Assembly (NCBI GenBank): GCA_009602725.1
Contig: WELB01000337.1
Span: forward strand, 1-30,080
Direction: 5' to 3'
Origin: Spirogloea muscicola
Taxonomy: Eukaryota > Streptophyta > Zygnematophyceae > Spirogloeales > Spirogloeaceae
DNA: 30,080 nucleotides
Positions within the stretch are counted from its first letter, which is position 1. Each line of letters begins with the position of its first letter. The notes below the pieces were generated by a model. That model did no database searches and was not told where the DNA came from. It worked only from the letters and a program-made list of their open reading frames with translations. Made by a program: the position numbers and the translations under genes. Shown piece by piece: positions 2,111-19,888 of this stretch.

Positions 2111-3355
2111 CACCCTTTCCTTCTCCTAACGATGATCTGTGCAATCTGGTCTGGCATGTTGTAATGTATATTCGCGTGCATGAACATCATTTCCGTAAAA
2201 AATCACACCCCTTATACCCTGGGCCTCAAGAAGTTTGAATCCTAATGCTCCCCTCCACGTGAGGTGTTCTGGACTGGCTACCCACAGCGACTGCAAGACA
2301 TTAAGTGTTACTAATTTGTCAGAAAAGTCATACGCTTGGTGTTCACGTAAAGAAGTTTGTGCAAAAGATGGACTCATCGTCTCTTTGACAACAGCTCTCT
2401 CGCCTTGCCTCACCCCCTGCAGTGAGTCCCACTTATCAGATATCATCAGCAGCCATTTCTATATTTACTTAGTGGCTGCATCCATTAAGCGCTTTCCTCA
2501 TGTCTTGACCGCAACCCTTGAAGCCGCTCTCCTCATGTCTTCTGCCCACTTAAATGGCACCGCCATAGCAGTGCCAACGCATGTCAACTTCTGAAAGGAT
2601 CCTAACGCCTGCTGCGCTTGGCAACCAAACCTTGCTTGTTTCACCAGTCTGAGCTTGTCATTCGATGCAAGAACCCGCACGCTCGGACTTCGCCACTCCC
2701 ACTGTAGGCTTTCCAATTCATAGTACCTGCTTCTCTAAACCCTCTGCTTAGACGTGAAATTACTCCTGCAACGCAAGCATCTCAATCGAGCATCTACAGC
2801 TTGAACCCCCAACATCACTTGAAGCTGATGAGGATGCACCCTTGAATCTTGCGCGTGGGTCTGGTTAGGCGGACTGATTGTGCAGACAGTATCCAGATGG
2901 TATTACTAAGGTAAGAATTAATCTACTCCACAGATAGGAAGTCCAGCTTTATCAAAGCAGGCCAATCCCAAGAATGAATACATAAGCGGCCACTGTCTTG
3001 GAGGGCAGGGCGCACAAAGAGTCCGGCTTTGCTGGACAAGCATGTAGAGTCGCTGCACTTTGGCACTGCCCTGCCAAAGAAGCTCAGGCAATTGTTCTAT
3101 TCTCCAACTTCCACGGGGTTCCCAGCAACTTTGAAGTGCTGGTAGTACCTGTTACAAGAGAGCAGCGGCAAAAGATTTGGGGCTTTAGAGGCCAATGAGT
3201 GTGCAGAAACTGTCACCGTCAGAGTCACTTGCAAGTTTGACTTGCCTGATGGCAGCGCACACTGAATTCGCTCATCTTGAGGACAGCCTGACATTAAAGT
3301 ATGTCAACGTGAGGGCGAAACAGTGCAAAGGCAGTCAAAAGAAGGTGGCCAGCGC
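2111..3355. other. Interval without a recognised gene
   Basis: The open frames here are short, with no recognisable domain and no splice-linked continuation. A weak hairpin-like remnant (GGACTGGCTACCCACAGC) lies near 2271-2288. The right part is the 3' flank of the minus-strand isopropylmalate-dehydrogenase-like gene. Confidence 0.5.
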
Positions 3356-5827
3356 TTACTCCATGGCTTCTACCAAGCGGTCACCGATCTCTTCTGCACT
3401 TGCAATCGTGGCACCCGGGCCTGACTGCATGTCGGCTGTTCTGACCCCATCCGCCAGTAGCGACCTCATGGCCTGCTGCAGTAAGTCTGCCAACACCGGC
3501 TGATAGTAGCAACTAGGTGTCATCACGGGTGTTCATAGAGTGACAACACATTGGCAGTGTTCACTGATCCGATGCGAGGTAAGATGATTAGGCTTAAGCA
3601 TTTGCCAGGCAAGCACATTGGCAGGTGTAGGATTTAGGGTCTAGAGTTATGTATTTAGGGTTAGGGTGGAAGGGTTTAGGGAGAAGATAGATTGAAAATC
3701 GGACCTGCTGGAGTTGATACCGGAGCATCATAGAAACTGATCGTAAAAGTCCAAAGGGATTGGCCGCCCTTCCGCCAAGCTCACCAGCTAACCTTCACTC
3801 ACAAGACAAAGACAAGGAGCGATTGCCTCGTAAGCTCTCATGAGAGCAGGTGTTGTTGGAAGCTGAGAGAAGGTCTCAGTACATGCCTAGACCTTGACTA
3901 CAGACTGACCATCAGTTACGCATGTCCTCAGCACTTAGATAATCTGCCAGCAGGAGTTTACCCAAAGAGGCCAGGCTTGTCCCCTGAGCTTAATTCCGCG
4001 GATGGAGCAAATCGGACACCACCCGTGATGCCCCTGGCTGTCTCAACCAGGACATCACCCAGCATATTCGCCAGCACAACTACGTCGTACTTTGTAGGCC
4101 GCTGGACAGATGCCATGGAAGCCAATGAGGGGTTTTCATGACAACTTCAGAGGGGAGACTGTACATGGAGTGCTCTCAAGCAGCACAAATAGGCTCCGAT
4201 CACTTAAGATTAGGAAAGCCAAGTGGCAGACAAGGGCTGTAGCTCTAGCTAGCAAACTGACTTCTGTCCTTGAGCTGGTACACCTCACAGGTTAGCGTTC
4301 ACATACATTGATATCGTGCTAAACTTACCACAGGAAAGCGAGAACATAGGCAAATCAATAGGCACAAAGGTGTGGACTTATATCACAGACCTGGACAAGA
4401 CGGCTGGCAAAGAGGTCAGCCAGCTCGTGATGCACCTCCACATCCGGATACTCTGTTTCACCAACCCTGGTCACAACCTGACACAACAGTTGATCTGCGA
4501 TTGCTTGAGCAAAACTCTCACCAAAGAGCTGCACCTTTATCCTATGATCTGGTCTTATGATCTGATTAGCTATATTCCTAGCAAGTGATCAGTGCTTACA
4601 AGACATATCCAGTCTGTCAAATGAATCACAATATGAATGCTAAGCACTACGGTTAGCAGGCCCCGCTTCCACAACAAGGGATCGCGAGCGAAGTACCTCA
4701 CGCCAGAGTCGGCTGACTTCCAGGTAGTTGGCAAGGTCGACAGATGTCAAGCGGCGGCTGCGGGCCCTCGCAATGTCAAATGCAGCCCGAGCAATGCGCT
4801 CGACTTCCTGGCTAGAGTATGCAGCAGTGCTGAAGGCCCGCTCATCTCCGCCTGGCAGCGGCTCCCTGCCCTGACACAAGAGAAGCGAGCACACTCGCTT
4901 CACGCCAGGCGGCTCATCCAGAGGGCTCCAACCTCCGTGCAAAAGCAAAACACGTCGCACAAGGCGCGTGCATTGGATACATGGGTGCCTCTCCCCGAGT
5001 CACCTGTTCACCGGTGTATATTCCACCACTGATTTCGCGGACAAAGATGAGGTCGGTGCCGCGGATGACCTCGGCCTTCAGCAGGTAGTCCTTCTCCAGC
5101 TGGGGGAAGGCCAAGGCGGGCGAAAGCTGCCAGAAGAGGTCCATCTCTGCCCGCAGCTTCAGCAGCGTCTGGGAGCGGAGCGGCGATCCCAGCGGGCCCT
5201 GCAATCAAATAACGACTTTGTGGGCGCTGAGTCCAAGTCTTACCAATGTCCTCATCTAGTGACTTGGACTTGCTGCGCTTCTGCTAAAGCCTTGATCAGT
5301 CTAGGATGCCCTTTGGAATGCCAAACAGACCCAACAGCCTGCACAGAACCACTTTGTGCTCATGTCTTGTACACTTCCCAATCTAACTGAAACCAATGAA
5401 CCCTGTATGTAAGACTGCTTCTGCAAAGTATTGCCACAAGGAATCGAGACAAGATCCTTGGCCAGGCAGATGGACACGCCAAGTTCCTCAGACTTGGTCG
5501 CAGTGTCGGTGGGTCGGTCAGTCAGCTGTACCTGTGACTTCATCCCAGCCCCTGATGTGATAGCTTGAGCTAATGACGCGAGTTCCAAGCTCATAAACGA
5601 GGTGAGAGGATCACCTCGTTGCCCTCGACCGTGACCTTGCTCCCGATGCCGCCGAGCAGGACGGCGTCGCAGGCCTTGCAATGCTCCACGGTCTCAGGCG
5701 GCAGCGAGTGCCCGGTCGCCTCAATGGCCGCATTGCCAATCAGGGCGTCGGTGATATCGAAGTCGACGCCGGAGCACTCCTCCAGCGCCTTGAGGGCCTT
5801 CTTGGCGATGGACATCACCTCCGGCCC
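3356..5827 (-). CDS. Isopropylmalate-dehydrogenase-family protein with altered active site (5' end not found)
   Basis: Seven minus-strand exons join in one frame: 5827-5615, 5198-5012, 4851-4697, 4477-4391, 4101-3962, 3792-3705 and 3499-3356 (TAA stop). They encode 337 residues. Family motifs run in order: GPEVM, ACDAVLLGGIGS, GTDLIFVREISGGIYTG, TSVDLANYLEVSRLW, EYPDVEVHH, ANMLGDVLVETARGITGG, GRAANPFGLL, MMLRYQL, and the C-terminal GVRTADM with EEIGDRLVEAM. 3-Isopropylmalate dehydrogenase is a plastid leucine-synthesis enzyme in plants. Retained residues are Arg and Tyr of REISGGIY and Asp of MLGD. The catalytic Lys (family VDKAN) is Leu, the Arg of family ANLRP is Ser, the second metal-ligand Asp is Glu, and the HGSAPDIAG NAD loop is absent. 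The acceptor at 3792 is the weakest junction. The first exon (with GDGI) was not found; the region above 5835 is repetitive and has an ambiguous base at 6181. It may be a pseudoenzyme paralog or a young pseudogene. Confidence 0.83.
3631..3686 (+). repeat. Degenerate telomere-like repeats inside an intron
   Basis: Several TTTAGGG or TTAGGG units lie within about 56 bases, separated by imperfect spacers. The tract falls in the last intron (3500-3704) of the minus-strand isopropylmalate-dehydrogenase-like gene. Plant-type telomeres use TTTAGGG; this is a short interstitial remnant and not a chromosome end. Confidence 0.55.
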
Positions 5828-5902
5828 CTGCACTCATTCGCAGTATAGAAGATTAGGCGAATAGTCACACTGCTGTAAAATTTATGAATGTGGAGCATTT
5901 GG

Positions 5903-6030
5903 ACGAGGCTGACGGCTGACGGCTTGACGGCTTGACGGCTTGGCGGCTGACGGCTTGATGGCTGACGGACCACGTCTGGCGGCTCACGGCCGACAGCCGA
6001 GGACTGACGGCTGACGGGCTGACGGGCGGA
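5903..6030 (+). repeat. Imperfect short tandem repeat, unit GACGGCTT / GACGGCTGA
   Basis: A run of eight- to ten-base units (GACGGCTGA, GACGGCTTG, TGGCGGCTGA and variants) fills most of this interval. The open minus-strand frame through it is Ser/Arg-rich only because of the repeat. It lies between the first detectable exon of the isopropylmalate-dehydrogenase-like gene and the phospholipase exon. Confidence 0.75.
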
Positions 6031-6111
6031 GAACTGGAGGCTGGTGGCTGCTTCAGGACTCTTGCGACCGCGCCAGCAGGAGCACCGGCGGCCGCCATTG
6101 AGCTCGCCGGA

Positions 6112-6113
<2 letters not shown>

Positions 6114-6144
<31 letters not shown>

Positions 6145-6181
6145 CGCGGCTCGAGGGGTTCAGCGAAGCGCACCTGGCCGN
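6114..6181 (+). repeat. GGC trinucleotide run followed by an ambiguous base
   Basis: An uninterrupted GGC run at about 6116-6142 is followed 40 bases later by a single N at 6181. The phospholipase homology begins right after the N, and nothing before it resembles the missing N-terminus of that protein. The N may mark an assembly join or low-quality consensus, so continuity across it should not be assumed. Confidence 0.7.
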
Positions 6182-7064
6182 CTCAACGCGTCGCTGCCCG
6201 GGTCGCCGCGCGTGCCCGTGCAGGACCTCGCCGAGTTCGTGGACCCGGACCCCGGCCACAGCTTCCAGGCCATCCGCGAGCAGGTGTTCGGCGGCAACTC
6301 GTCGCGCCACGTCGCGCAAAACCCGGCGCCCATGGACGGCTTCGTGCAGCAGGCGGAGAGCATGATTTCCGGCTTCGGCGCGCGCGTGATGAGCCAGTTC
6401 CGGCCCGCCGCCGTGCCCGTGCTCTCGGAGCTGGCCGCGCAGTTTGCCGTCGTGGACTCGTGGCACTCGAGCGTGCCGGCGTCCACGCAGCCCAACCGGC
6501 TGTTCATCCACAGCGCGACGTCGCATGGCGCCACCGGCAACCACGTCCCGGACCTCGTCCGCGGCTTCCCGCAGAAGACGCTGTACGACAGCCTGGAGGA
6601 GAGCGGCCTGTCGTGGGGCGTCTACTTCCAAAACATGCCCAGCGTGCTGTTCCTGCGCTCCCTGCGCCGCCCCAAGTACGCGCCGCGCTTCCACTCGTAC
6701 GAGATGCTGCGCCTGCACGCGCGCCTCGGCCTGCTGCCCAACTACGTCGTGCTGGAGCCCGCGTACTTCGACATCGCCGGCCGCCCCGCCAATGACGACC
6801 ACCCGTCGCACGACATCGCCGAGGGCCAGCGGTTCATGAAGGAGGTGTACGAGATGTTCCGCGCGGCCAAGCAGTGGCACGAGATGCTCCTCATCCTCAC
6901 GTACGACGAGCACGGCGGCTTCTACGACCACGTGCCCACGCCCGTGCGCCACGTCCCCTCGCCCGACGGCATCGTCGGCCCCAAGCCCTGGCGCTTCAAG
7001 TTTGACCGCCTCGGCGTGCGCGTCCCCACTGTCCTCATCTCGCCCTGGATCGATGCCACTACTG
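6182..7064 (+). CDS. NPC: Non-specific phospholipase C (phosphoesterase family), partial
   Basis: One long GC-rich exon encodes about 294 residues of the plant non-specific phospholipase C / acid-phosphatase-like phosphoesterase family, which hydrolyses phospholipids to diacylglycerol. Motifs in order are FVDPDPGHSFQAIREQVFG, MSGFGAR-like ISGFGARVMSQF, HSATSHGATGN, GLSWGVYFQNMPS, YFDIAGRPANDDHPSHDI, the acidic motif LTYDEHGGFYDHVPTP and GVRVPTVLISPWI. The N-terminal ENRSFDH-type catalytic motif is missing, because homology starts right at the ambiguous base. Homology ends after LISPWID at a possible donor (ACTG then GTAACA), and no exon with the usual EHSS segment follows before the convergent malate dehydrogenase gene 268 bases away. 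It may be a broken gene, or the other exons may have been misplaced by assembly. Confidence 0.83.
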
Positions 7065-7331
7065 GTAACATGACCACTCATACCACTTGTCAATGCAGCA
7101 GACCTTGTTGGACAGTGTTAGGCTCCAATGCATTTAAACGCAACCCTGATTTTTCCTGGGAGAAAGAGATAATTGTACCAAATGCACAGATGGTGGATGC
7201 AAGGTGATTGAAATGTTTGGAACAATTTCCCCTAAAGTAAACCACTTCACAAGTAGGCGAATAGCCTAAATAGGGAGCCAAGTTCTGTAGGTTGTCTTCA
7301 CTGTTTGTTGCAGAAAGGAGTGTTGCAAAGC

Positions 7332-17989: not shown

Positions 17990-19888
17990 CGTCAGAAGAA
18001 AGAGCTCGCCCATTGAATGAACAAAGAACGAGAAGGGGGCCAGAGGAAGCCAGAGGAAGCGCTAAGAAACCAAAGCACACAAAGAAAGAAAGCAGCTACA
18101 AATTACTCAGTAACCCCTGCTAAGCAGCCGCAAATCAGAGAGGCTAGGGTCCTGGAAGTGGGTCCCCTGGACAGAGCCAGAGGCAGCAGCGAGGGCTCTC
18201 CCGGCACGAAGGTGCAGCGCACGGGCCATGGACCTCTGCAGCGAGACGGCCAAGCGCATGCGATACACTTGCGCCAGCGACCCGGCTGCAGGAAAGTCTA
18301 CCGGTTCACCATGGAAGCGACGGGCGATTGCGTGGCGGGCGAGCTGGTTAAGTAGCTCAAGCCACCGAGCGCCCAGTGCCCCATGGATGTCAATTGCCAA
18401 CGGGAAGAACTCGTCTTCCGGTGGATGGTCGGCGTACTTGATCTCTTTTGCCCGAGCGGCGCAGGCGACCGCATACCCAGCCTTGGTGGCAGACTGGGCT
18501 GGGTGGGAGCGGTCAAATGCGTCGGTAGTCACCACATCCAGAAGCAGACGTGGCCCGCCGGCCTGTGGGGTGGCCACCAGGTCGACGCGACGAGCGTGGA
18601 GACCGTCGGCCCTGGCCTGGAGCGGCATGACGCCGGAGTGCTCCGCTGCCACCGCGAAGCCAGCCTCCACCAGGATGCTGTGCATCGCGTCCCGGAGGCG
18701 GTCGTGGGCCGCCGTCCTCTCGCCGCCATGGGAACAGCGCAGGACGTGAGCAGCCAGCTCGCCAGGCTTGGCCCCTCGCTCGCCACACTGGCATTGACGC
18801 ACGCCCTGGAGGCATGGAGGCGGCAGCCCCAGGAGCCGGTGGACGGCAGTGCGAAACACCTCATCTGGGAGGGTCAGGGCGTCAGTGATGGGGAGTGCCT
18901 GGAGCCACGCCGCTGCCCCCGGGGAGGAGGCCGAATGTAGTCTCGCGCGCCCGCGCAGGTCAGCCTCAGGAAGCTGCAGCACGGCGGTGGTGTAGGCGGC
19001 CTTGTCGACGACGGCCGCGAAGCGCGCTTGGACGCGCAGGTCAGCGGTGTGCGCGAGGTGCGCAAAGGAGACCGCCTGGCCGGCCATGTCGGGGTGCGCC
19101 GCGAGCAGCTCCTGGTGGGCGGTGCGAAGCGCCACCTGGAACGGCAGCGCGCCTTTGTCCACCTCCACCACCGCCTGCTCCAGTGCACGCCGGCCATGGA
19201 CCATGAAGCGCTGAGCCACGGAGGCGGCAGTCTGCGCCCAGCTGCCGAGGTATGCAGCCCGGCATGAGCGGACGAGCGGGCGCAGGCCGAGACCCCCGTG
19301 GCTGATGGGTAGCGCCGCCTGGTGGATAGCGGCTGGCGACTGGGGGAAGCCCTGGTGGCGGACCAGGGCCGCCAAGCTCGCCACCATGCCCGCGTCGAAA
19401 GTCGCGTACGCCGCCAATGCCTCTGGGGACGGCGGGGTGGCCCGCGTCAAGTACTGGGGCCGCTGCCCGATGGCCTTGGTCAGCATGGCCAAGGACAGCT
19501 GCATATCCTCCAGCTCGGGGAGCCGGGCCGCGGGCTGAAGGTGCTCCGCGAGGCGGGCTCGCAGCTGCCCCTCCACGAAGGCTGGCGTGCCGATGGGGAC
19601 TCCCAGGAGGGTGAAGCCGTCTGCCGGAGTCCGGCAGCCCGGGGGCAGCGCCAGGGTGGGTAGGATCACGCCAGGGGACCAAGCCGCGCACTTCGCCGGC
19701 CGGATGGTCAGGCCGAGGGTGGCCAGCTGCTGCGTGAAAGTAACGAAGGCCGCCGCCACGTCTTCCGGAGGGCCGACAATGGTGGTGTCGTCCGCGTAGG
19801 TGGGAAGAAAGGGGGACCGATGCAAGCGAATCCTCTGTTCTTTCTTTCTGTTCATGCAGAGCTAGTGCAAAAAGTGGGGCTACATTAC
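17990..19888 (-). mobile_element. Non-LTR retrotransposon: partial reverse transcriptase, zinc-binding motif and endonuclease-like domain
   Basis: The minus-strand frame 19855-18107 carries the reverse transcriptase catalytic motif PTYADDTTIVG, then GLTIRPAKCAAW (palm/thumb region), a long connection, a CxC...HxxxC motif (CQCGERG...AAHVLRC) and a C-terminal domain with ARRVDLVATP, LLLDVVTTD and AKEIKYADHP. That domain resembles the restriction-like endonuclease of R2-type elements, which nicks target DNA. The end is SLSDLRLLSRGY and a stop; a tail box and a degraded end box follow to about 17990. Upstream, NVAPLFALALHE at about 19885-19850 looks like the preceding RT motif (family GPLLFALALH) in another frame, so this copy is frameshifted and truncated near 19888, and likely inactive. 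A Dualen/RandI-type algal element is possible. Confidence 0.85.

Follow-up and report, generated by a model that had tools for sequence, protein, structure and literature searches.

Pseudoenzyme-like regulatory subunits are already known in the sister IDH3 family of the isocitrate/isopropylmalate dehydrogenases. In the parts of the structural account of human IDH3 that concern its active and allosteric sites, the active site of the alpha subunit uses Lys182 and Asp215 from the gamma subunit, and the citrate site of gamma is formed by its own Arg97, Arg128 and Tyr135 together with two residues of the partner alpha, Lys173 and Asn175, with Asn78, Thr81, Ser91, Asn93 and Arg272 as further citrate ligands in gamma (PMC5241874). 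Likewise, the relevant parts of a second account describe the beta3-alpha3 and beta12-alpha8 loops as NAD-binding in alpha, whereas in gamma and beta these loops form the allosteric and pseudo-allosteric sites (PMC6827300). In the open-licence literature searched, apparently neither a pseudoenzyme of the LeuB branch nor an algal LeuB paralogue has been described; what would be new in the locus presented here is pseudoenzyme evolution in the LeuB branch, inside the isocitrate/isopropylmalate dehydrogenase superfamily.

The window, that is, the whole stretch of 30,080 nt analysed here (contig WELB01000337.1 of Spirogloea muscicola, designated C337), contains a gene for a LeuB-like protein on its minus strand; the genome searched for related genes comprises 153 Mb in 471 contigs. 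It carries genes for the RuBisCO small subunit (eight exon matches, distributed over four contigs), which points to a green alga, as does the closeness of its canonical LeuB to the Arabidopsis chloroplast enzyme. The first-pass annotation had located this gene at 3356–5827 (minus strand), which is correct, the exons being bordered by AG acceptors and GT donors with phases that fit, and had seen seven exons splicing in phase, which indeed join into 1041 nt coding for 346 amino acids plus a stop. The gene model is beyond chance because its exons, splice sites and residues recur in a near-twin gene at C29:413914–416437 (minus strand). An eighth exon, in fact the first of the gene, ends in LPGDGQ in C29 and is absent from the window. 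The features are listed below in window coordinates; residue numbers follow Thermus LeuB, as in the first-pass annotation.

6182–7069, plus strand: fragment (888 bases) of a phosphoesterase gene of the phospholipase C type, occupying the place of C29 exon 1 and its upstream DNA
6181, no strand: lone N, the break that cuts exon 1
6174–6180, minus strand: last 7 bases of exon 1, recognised by alignment to C29
5615–5827, minus strand: exon 2 (GPEVMSIAKK...VTVEGNE), where the LeuB-like domain begins in the window
5004–5198, minus strand: exon 3, carrying the latter half of the rebuilt loop that precedes helix 3, with Arg94, Arg132 and Tyr139 kept
5123–5121, minus strand: codon in exon 3 for Ser at the position of Arg104 (WQLSP)
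4697–4870, minus strand: exon 4, with Leu at the position of Lys185 (SVDLANYLE; codon 4735–4733)
4391–4477, minus strand: exon 5, with the Asp217 equivalent kept
3962–4101, minus strand: exon 6, with Asp241 kept and Glu at the position of Asp245 (codon 4044–4042)
3705–3792, minus strand: exon 7, with a shortened and rewritten coenzyme loop in which GLAGELGGRAANP replaces EPVHGSAPDIAGKGIANP
3356–3499, minus strand: exon 8, C-terminal part, with stop TAA

The 33-aa peptide of exon 1 has a match in the genome only in C29, and the genome search with the exon 2 region matched C29 at 90% over residues 1–80, read-through included. The 888-base fragment is 98% identical to C111 and C328, matches Pfam PF04185 with 254.8 bits and starts in the middle of an exon of the phosphoesterase gene, and similarity between the window and C29 resumes at 7071 with 86–87% identity. 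The fragment is probably an assembly fault, and we favour such a fault as the reason for the missing exon 1 because this misplaced sequence has an N at one end; if it were instead a real replacement or rearrangement, the window copy would be without its start. Exon 1 of the C29 gene also contains an N. Additionally, C111 and C328 are 100% identical over 1665 bases, which may reflect redundant sequence in the assembly.

Past the stop codon of the gene, at 3097–3165 (minus strand), there is a 69-base block identical in C29, consisting of an acceptor-like stretch followed by YYQHFKVAGNPVEVGE and a stop; it resembles a coding exon, and no upstream exon for it was found by eye. The last intron contains telomere-like repeats of the TTTAGGG type at about 3626–3680, with a degenerate counterpart in C29. 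Elsewhere in the window, a 584-residue open frame at 18110–19861 (minus strand) has a weak match to reverse transcriptase (E 0.0038, 17.4 bits), under the Pfam cut-off of 29.6.

The LeuB-like protein matches Pfam Iso_dh nearly end to end with 268.4 bits (cut-off 27), and its best NCBI family model is TIGR00169 (leuB), with 279.4 bits, the next model scoring 155.7 bits and mito_nad_idh 81.5 bits; the top 12 PDB rows are also IPMDH. The protein did not reach the curated cut-off of TIGR00169 (353.2 bits); without exon 1, the first 10 of the 349 model positions have no counterpart, and it is unlikely that they explain the whole shortfall. These sequence comparisons place the protein in the LeuB branch of the isocitrate/isopropylmalate dehydrogenase family. 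Two sorts of NAD-IDH-type genes, spread over five contigs, are also present in the genome and are distinct from the LeuB-like gene. A canonical isopropylmalate dehydrogenase is present twice, in C31 and C14; its intron after ELTG apparently opens with GC and not with GT in both copies (L019, about 2030–2285, in C31; L020, in C14).

In an alignment of 15 sequences, the LeuB-like protein is 41% identical to the canonical LeuB of the same genome and 38–43% identical to bacterial LeuB, and against Arabidopsis the canonical LeuB scores 535 bits vs. 231 bits for the LeuB-like protein. In the tree from these 15 sequences, the C337 and C29 proteins stand together, apart from all others, at the end of a very long branch; the AU test neither speaks for nor rejects a grouping of this pair with plant LeuB (p-AU 0.48). 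Six intron positions were mapped in the LeuB-like gene and nine in the canonical one; none coincide, and the closest two are separated by 4 columns. A single scan of genomes from bacteria and archaea confirmed nine loci from 55 pattern-matching stretches, and one scan of viral contigs confirmed none from seven; no relative sharing the odd changes described below appeared in either scan. A close bacterial source was rejected on the former scan, where the nine confirmed loci were all canonical and 37–41% identical over the best segment.

Residues were compared, with positions mapped by alignment, to 13 other LeuB rows: the two canonical proteins of the genome, those from Arabidopsis and Bacillus, and nine bacterial loci. 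The LeuB-like protein keeps L90, L91, R94, R132, Y139, N187, D217, D241, G274, A276 and N286, and is changed at E87 (to S), N102 (to Q), R104 (to S), K185 (to L), V188 (to Y) and D245 (to E), and, in the coenzyme loop, at S275 (to L), P277 (to G) and D278 (to E), with E270–H273 absent. Residues E87, R104, K185, D245, H273 and D278 are intact in 13 of the 13 other rows. In the LeuB-like protein, the loop ahead of helix 3 has more residues than in the other rows and does not resemble theirs, which makes the alignment there uncertain and the assignment of E87 less sure. The alignment thus agrees with the first-pass annotation in that Lys185, Arg104 and Asp245 were exchanged for Leu, Ser and Glu, and in that Arg94, Arg132, Tyr139 and Asp241 were retained, to which Asp217 can be added. 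In terms of the active site, the catalytic Lys/Tyr pair keeps its Tyr and has Leu for Lys in both copies, two of the three substrate Arg are kept (Arg94 and Arg132, with Ser for Arg104), and so are two of the three metal Asp (Asp217 and Asp241, with Glu for Asp245). It had also been remarked there that the HGSAPDIAG loop appears deleted, which holds in part: EPVH is lost, but the loop is not wholly deleted, since exon 7 supplies GLAGELGGRAANP and GLAGE remains. The protein lacks the NAD loop EPVHGSAPD of a functional LeuB, and several contacts to the coenzyme are missing.

The odd residues could derive from a wrong choice of exons or from sequence errors, given that the loop change hangs on one exon join and that the N and the misplaced fragment are close by. 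However, the changes of Lys, Arg and Asp are inside exons and away from the joins, and C29 agrees, including a conserved start of exon 7. The possibility that the Leu codon was a sequencing error, contemplated in the first-pass annotation, was not borne out, since this codon is CTT in the window and CTC in C29, and such a synonymous difference between two loci argues against error. The same fate befell the alternative exons that might have restored the Lys and HGSAPD segments: HGSAPD, EPVHG and NLRP are absent from the three coding-strand frames over 2434–6180 of the window and over the C29 gene, no HGSAPD-like codons were found in the intron preceding exon 7 in either copy and, therefore, no alternative exon there restores the lost motifs. 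An origin of the odd residues in errors or exon choice is scarcely credible, and wrong splicing was rejected as an explanation because the changes are exon-internal, the twin agrees and no frame holds the lost motifs.

The exons from C337 and C29 are identical in 989 of 1041 columns, with no gap, and the introns in 1140 of 1409 ungapped columns (81%), with 96 gap columns in 1505; the proteins share 337 of 346 residues and differ in nine. By the Nei–Gojobori method, this corresponds to a Ks of 0.174 and a Ka of 0.0118 (42 synonymous vs. nine nonsynonymous differences), and to a Ka/Ks of 0.068, compared to 0.073 for the canonical pair C31/C14 (Ks 0.128, Ka 0.0093; 341 codons, first exon left out), which carries the residues intact. 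The two LeuB-like copies thus differ in the manner expected of strong purifying selection, and their gene has been kept about as strictly as the working leucine enzyme since the duplication. This argument holds alike for C337 and C29 as paralogues, homeologues or diverged haplotypes. The odd changes are common to both loci and, therefore, predate their duplication. With two sequences only, differences are not assignable to branches; were all nine assigned to the window branch, this branch would have a Ka/Ks of about 0.135 (0.0118 divided by half of 0.174), which is its upper limit. In this genome, genes of the superfamily occur in pairs or triplets of diverged copies (C31/C14, C29/C337, C13/C157 and C1/C70/C159), which suggests that the genome is duplicated, of hybrid origin, or diploid with its copies left unmerged.

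These values bear on whether the gene is a pseudogene, or a recently inactivated copy of LeuB in the course of decay, as its lost catalytic residues and the cut of exon 1 at 6181 in the window might indicate. We consider this very improbable, because Ka/Ks is low, the changes are older than the duplication and the ratio of the window branch, although not separable with two sequences, is at most about 0.135; the missing exon adjoins an N and a misplaced fragment. Moreover, exons 2–8 of both copies show conserved splice sites and no stop, frameshift or exon indel, in agreement with the initial view that intact splicing counts against simple decay. The very recent loss of activity suggested in the first-pass annotation as another option is not supported, because the changes precede a duplication with a Ks of 0.174.

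The combination of lost catalytic residues and purifying selection was found in two copies from one genome and, with changes shared by a diverged locus and lost motifs in no coding-strand frame, supports the pseudoenzyme proposed for this gene in the first-pass annotation. From this evidence, it is likely that the gene encodes an old, conserved pseudoenzyme derived from LeuB. Judging from the chemistry of the family, a protein that has lost Lys, Arg104, Glu87 and the coenzyme loop is unlikely to carry out NAD-dependent oxidation of isopropylmalate. The constraint on the rest of the protein implies a function, which is probably a different, non-catalytic job; a structural or regulatory role, as first proposed, would be plausible. 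An active enzyme with a different chemistry, such as a lyase or a dehydrogenase with another proton donor, would explain that the metal and carboxylate residues Arg94, Arg132, Tyr139, Asp217 and Asp241 were kept and that the constraint is similar to that on the canonical enzyme. Nevertheless, Lys185, Arg104, Glu87 and EPVH are gone, Asp278 is Glu, and the bacterial/archaeal and viral scans, one of each, returned no relative with the odd changes, and so we deem such an enzyme clearly improbable.

For a conserved pseudoenzyme, the most likely mechanism would start with a protein that folds as a LeuB-like dimer and that could still bind a malate-type acid through Arg94, Arg132, Tyr139, Asn187, Asp217 and Asp241, and would serve as a ligand sensor in a regulatory or structural role. 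When paired with itself, it would be a stand-alone ligand binder, and a role as a stand-alone binder or scaffold is an appreciable possibility, if short of an expectation; pairing with the canonical LeuB, where it would supply no Lys in trans and could silence the LeuB site, is put forward tentatively.

In LeuB, Lys185 is donated in trans, and Asn187 and Asp217, taken as the other residues given in trans, are both kept in the LeuB-like protein. The protein might then be a dominant-negative partner that, in mixed dimers with the canonical LeuB, withholds the Lys, turns the LeuB site off and tunes leucine synthesis. Such a role would fit with active sites in the superfamily being completed by the partner subunit, as in the parts of the IDH3 account already mentioned (PMC5241874), and with a statement in an account of Thermus LeuB that links residue 220 to a different subunit (PMC6597716). 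This residue belongs to the helix from which Asp217 and His222 extend to the NAD pocket, and a canonical LeuB is available in the genome as a partner. Against it, identity to that LeuB is only 41%, and ARGITGG replaces ASMLTGS, with Arg and Gly where LeuB has Ser and Met, in a helix that we take to be the dimer core; additionally, the N-terminus is incomplete, so that an organelle shared with LeuB is only presumed. On balance, a dominant-negative partner is possible but doubtful. If true, the conserved pseudoenzyme indicates that the alga controls its synthesis of branched-chain amino acids in a way not yet recognised; likewise, annotation based on similarity could mislabel the LeuB-like gene as a leucine enzyme.

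The LeuB-like protein shares with the canonical LeuB (C31 and C14) and with the Arabidopsis chloroplast IPMDH (5J32) the fold family, 41% identity and residues Arg94, Arg132, Tyr139, Asn187, Asp217 and Asp241, whereas it differs from them in Lys185, Arg104, Glu87, Asp245 and the EPVHGSAPD loop, and its gene differs from the canonical one of the same genome in intron positions. A residue other than Lys is also found at the same place in the Arabidopsis IPMDH2 chain 5J34, which has SVDMAN where 5J32 has SVDKAN; this Met is presumably an engineered mutation, unlike the Leu of the LeuB-like protein, which is natural and accompanied by many other changes.

By their motifs and spacing, the two rebuilt loops of the LeuB-like protein appear to correspond to the beta3-alpha3 and beta12-alpha8 loops of IDH3. 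Within the parts of the IDH3 accounts drawn on here, the protein resembles IDH3 beta and gamma in being a paralogue of a catalytic subunit, with both corresponding coenzyme-side loops different from those of that subunit, and it resembles gamma in keeping two Arg and one Tyr in the substrate pocket; rebuilt coenzyme loops thus coexist with carboxylate-binding Arg and Tyr, as in an IDH3-type regulatory subunit. The likeness is incomplete: Asn78, Thr81, Ser91, Asn93 and Arg272 of gamma, as named in those parts, lie in or near the loops rewritten here and could not be matched, and the protein belongs to the LeuB and not to the IDH branch (279 bits for leuB vs. 81.5 bits for mito_nad_idh). Unlike gamma, as described there, it has no Lys for a catalytic partner, with Leu at that place in both copies; the missing donated Lys argues against a helper of the IDH3 type, so that the remaining options are a partner that silences LeuB or a protein that binds its ligand on its own. 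It is conceivable, although unlikely, that a green algal lineage evolved a dedicated silencing subunit for leucine synthesis that would sense a malate-type acid and, by not providing the trans Lys in mixed dimers, inactivate LeuB; by analogy, such a subunit would be the reverse of IDH3, whose regulatory subunit supplies the Lys.
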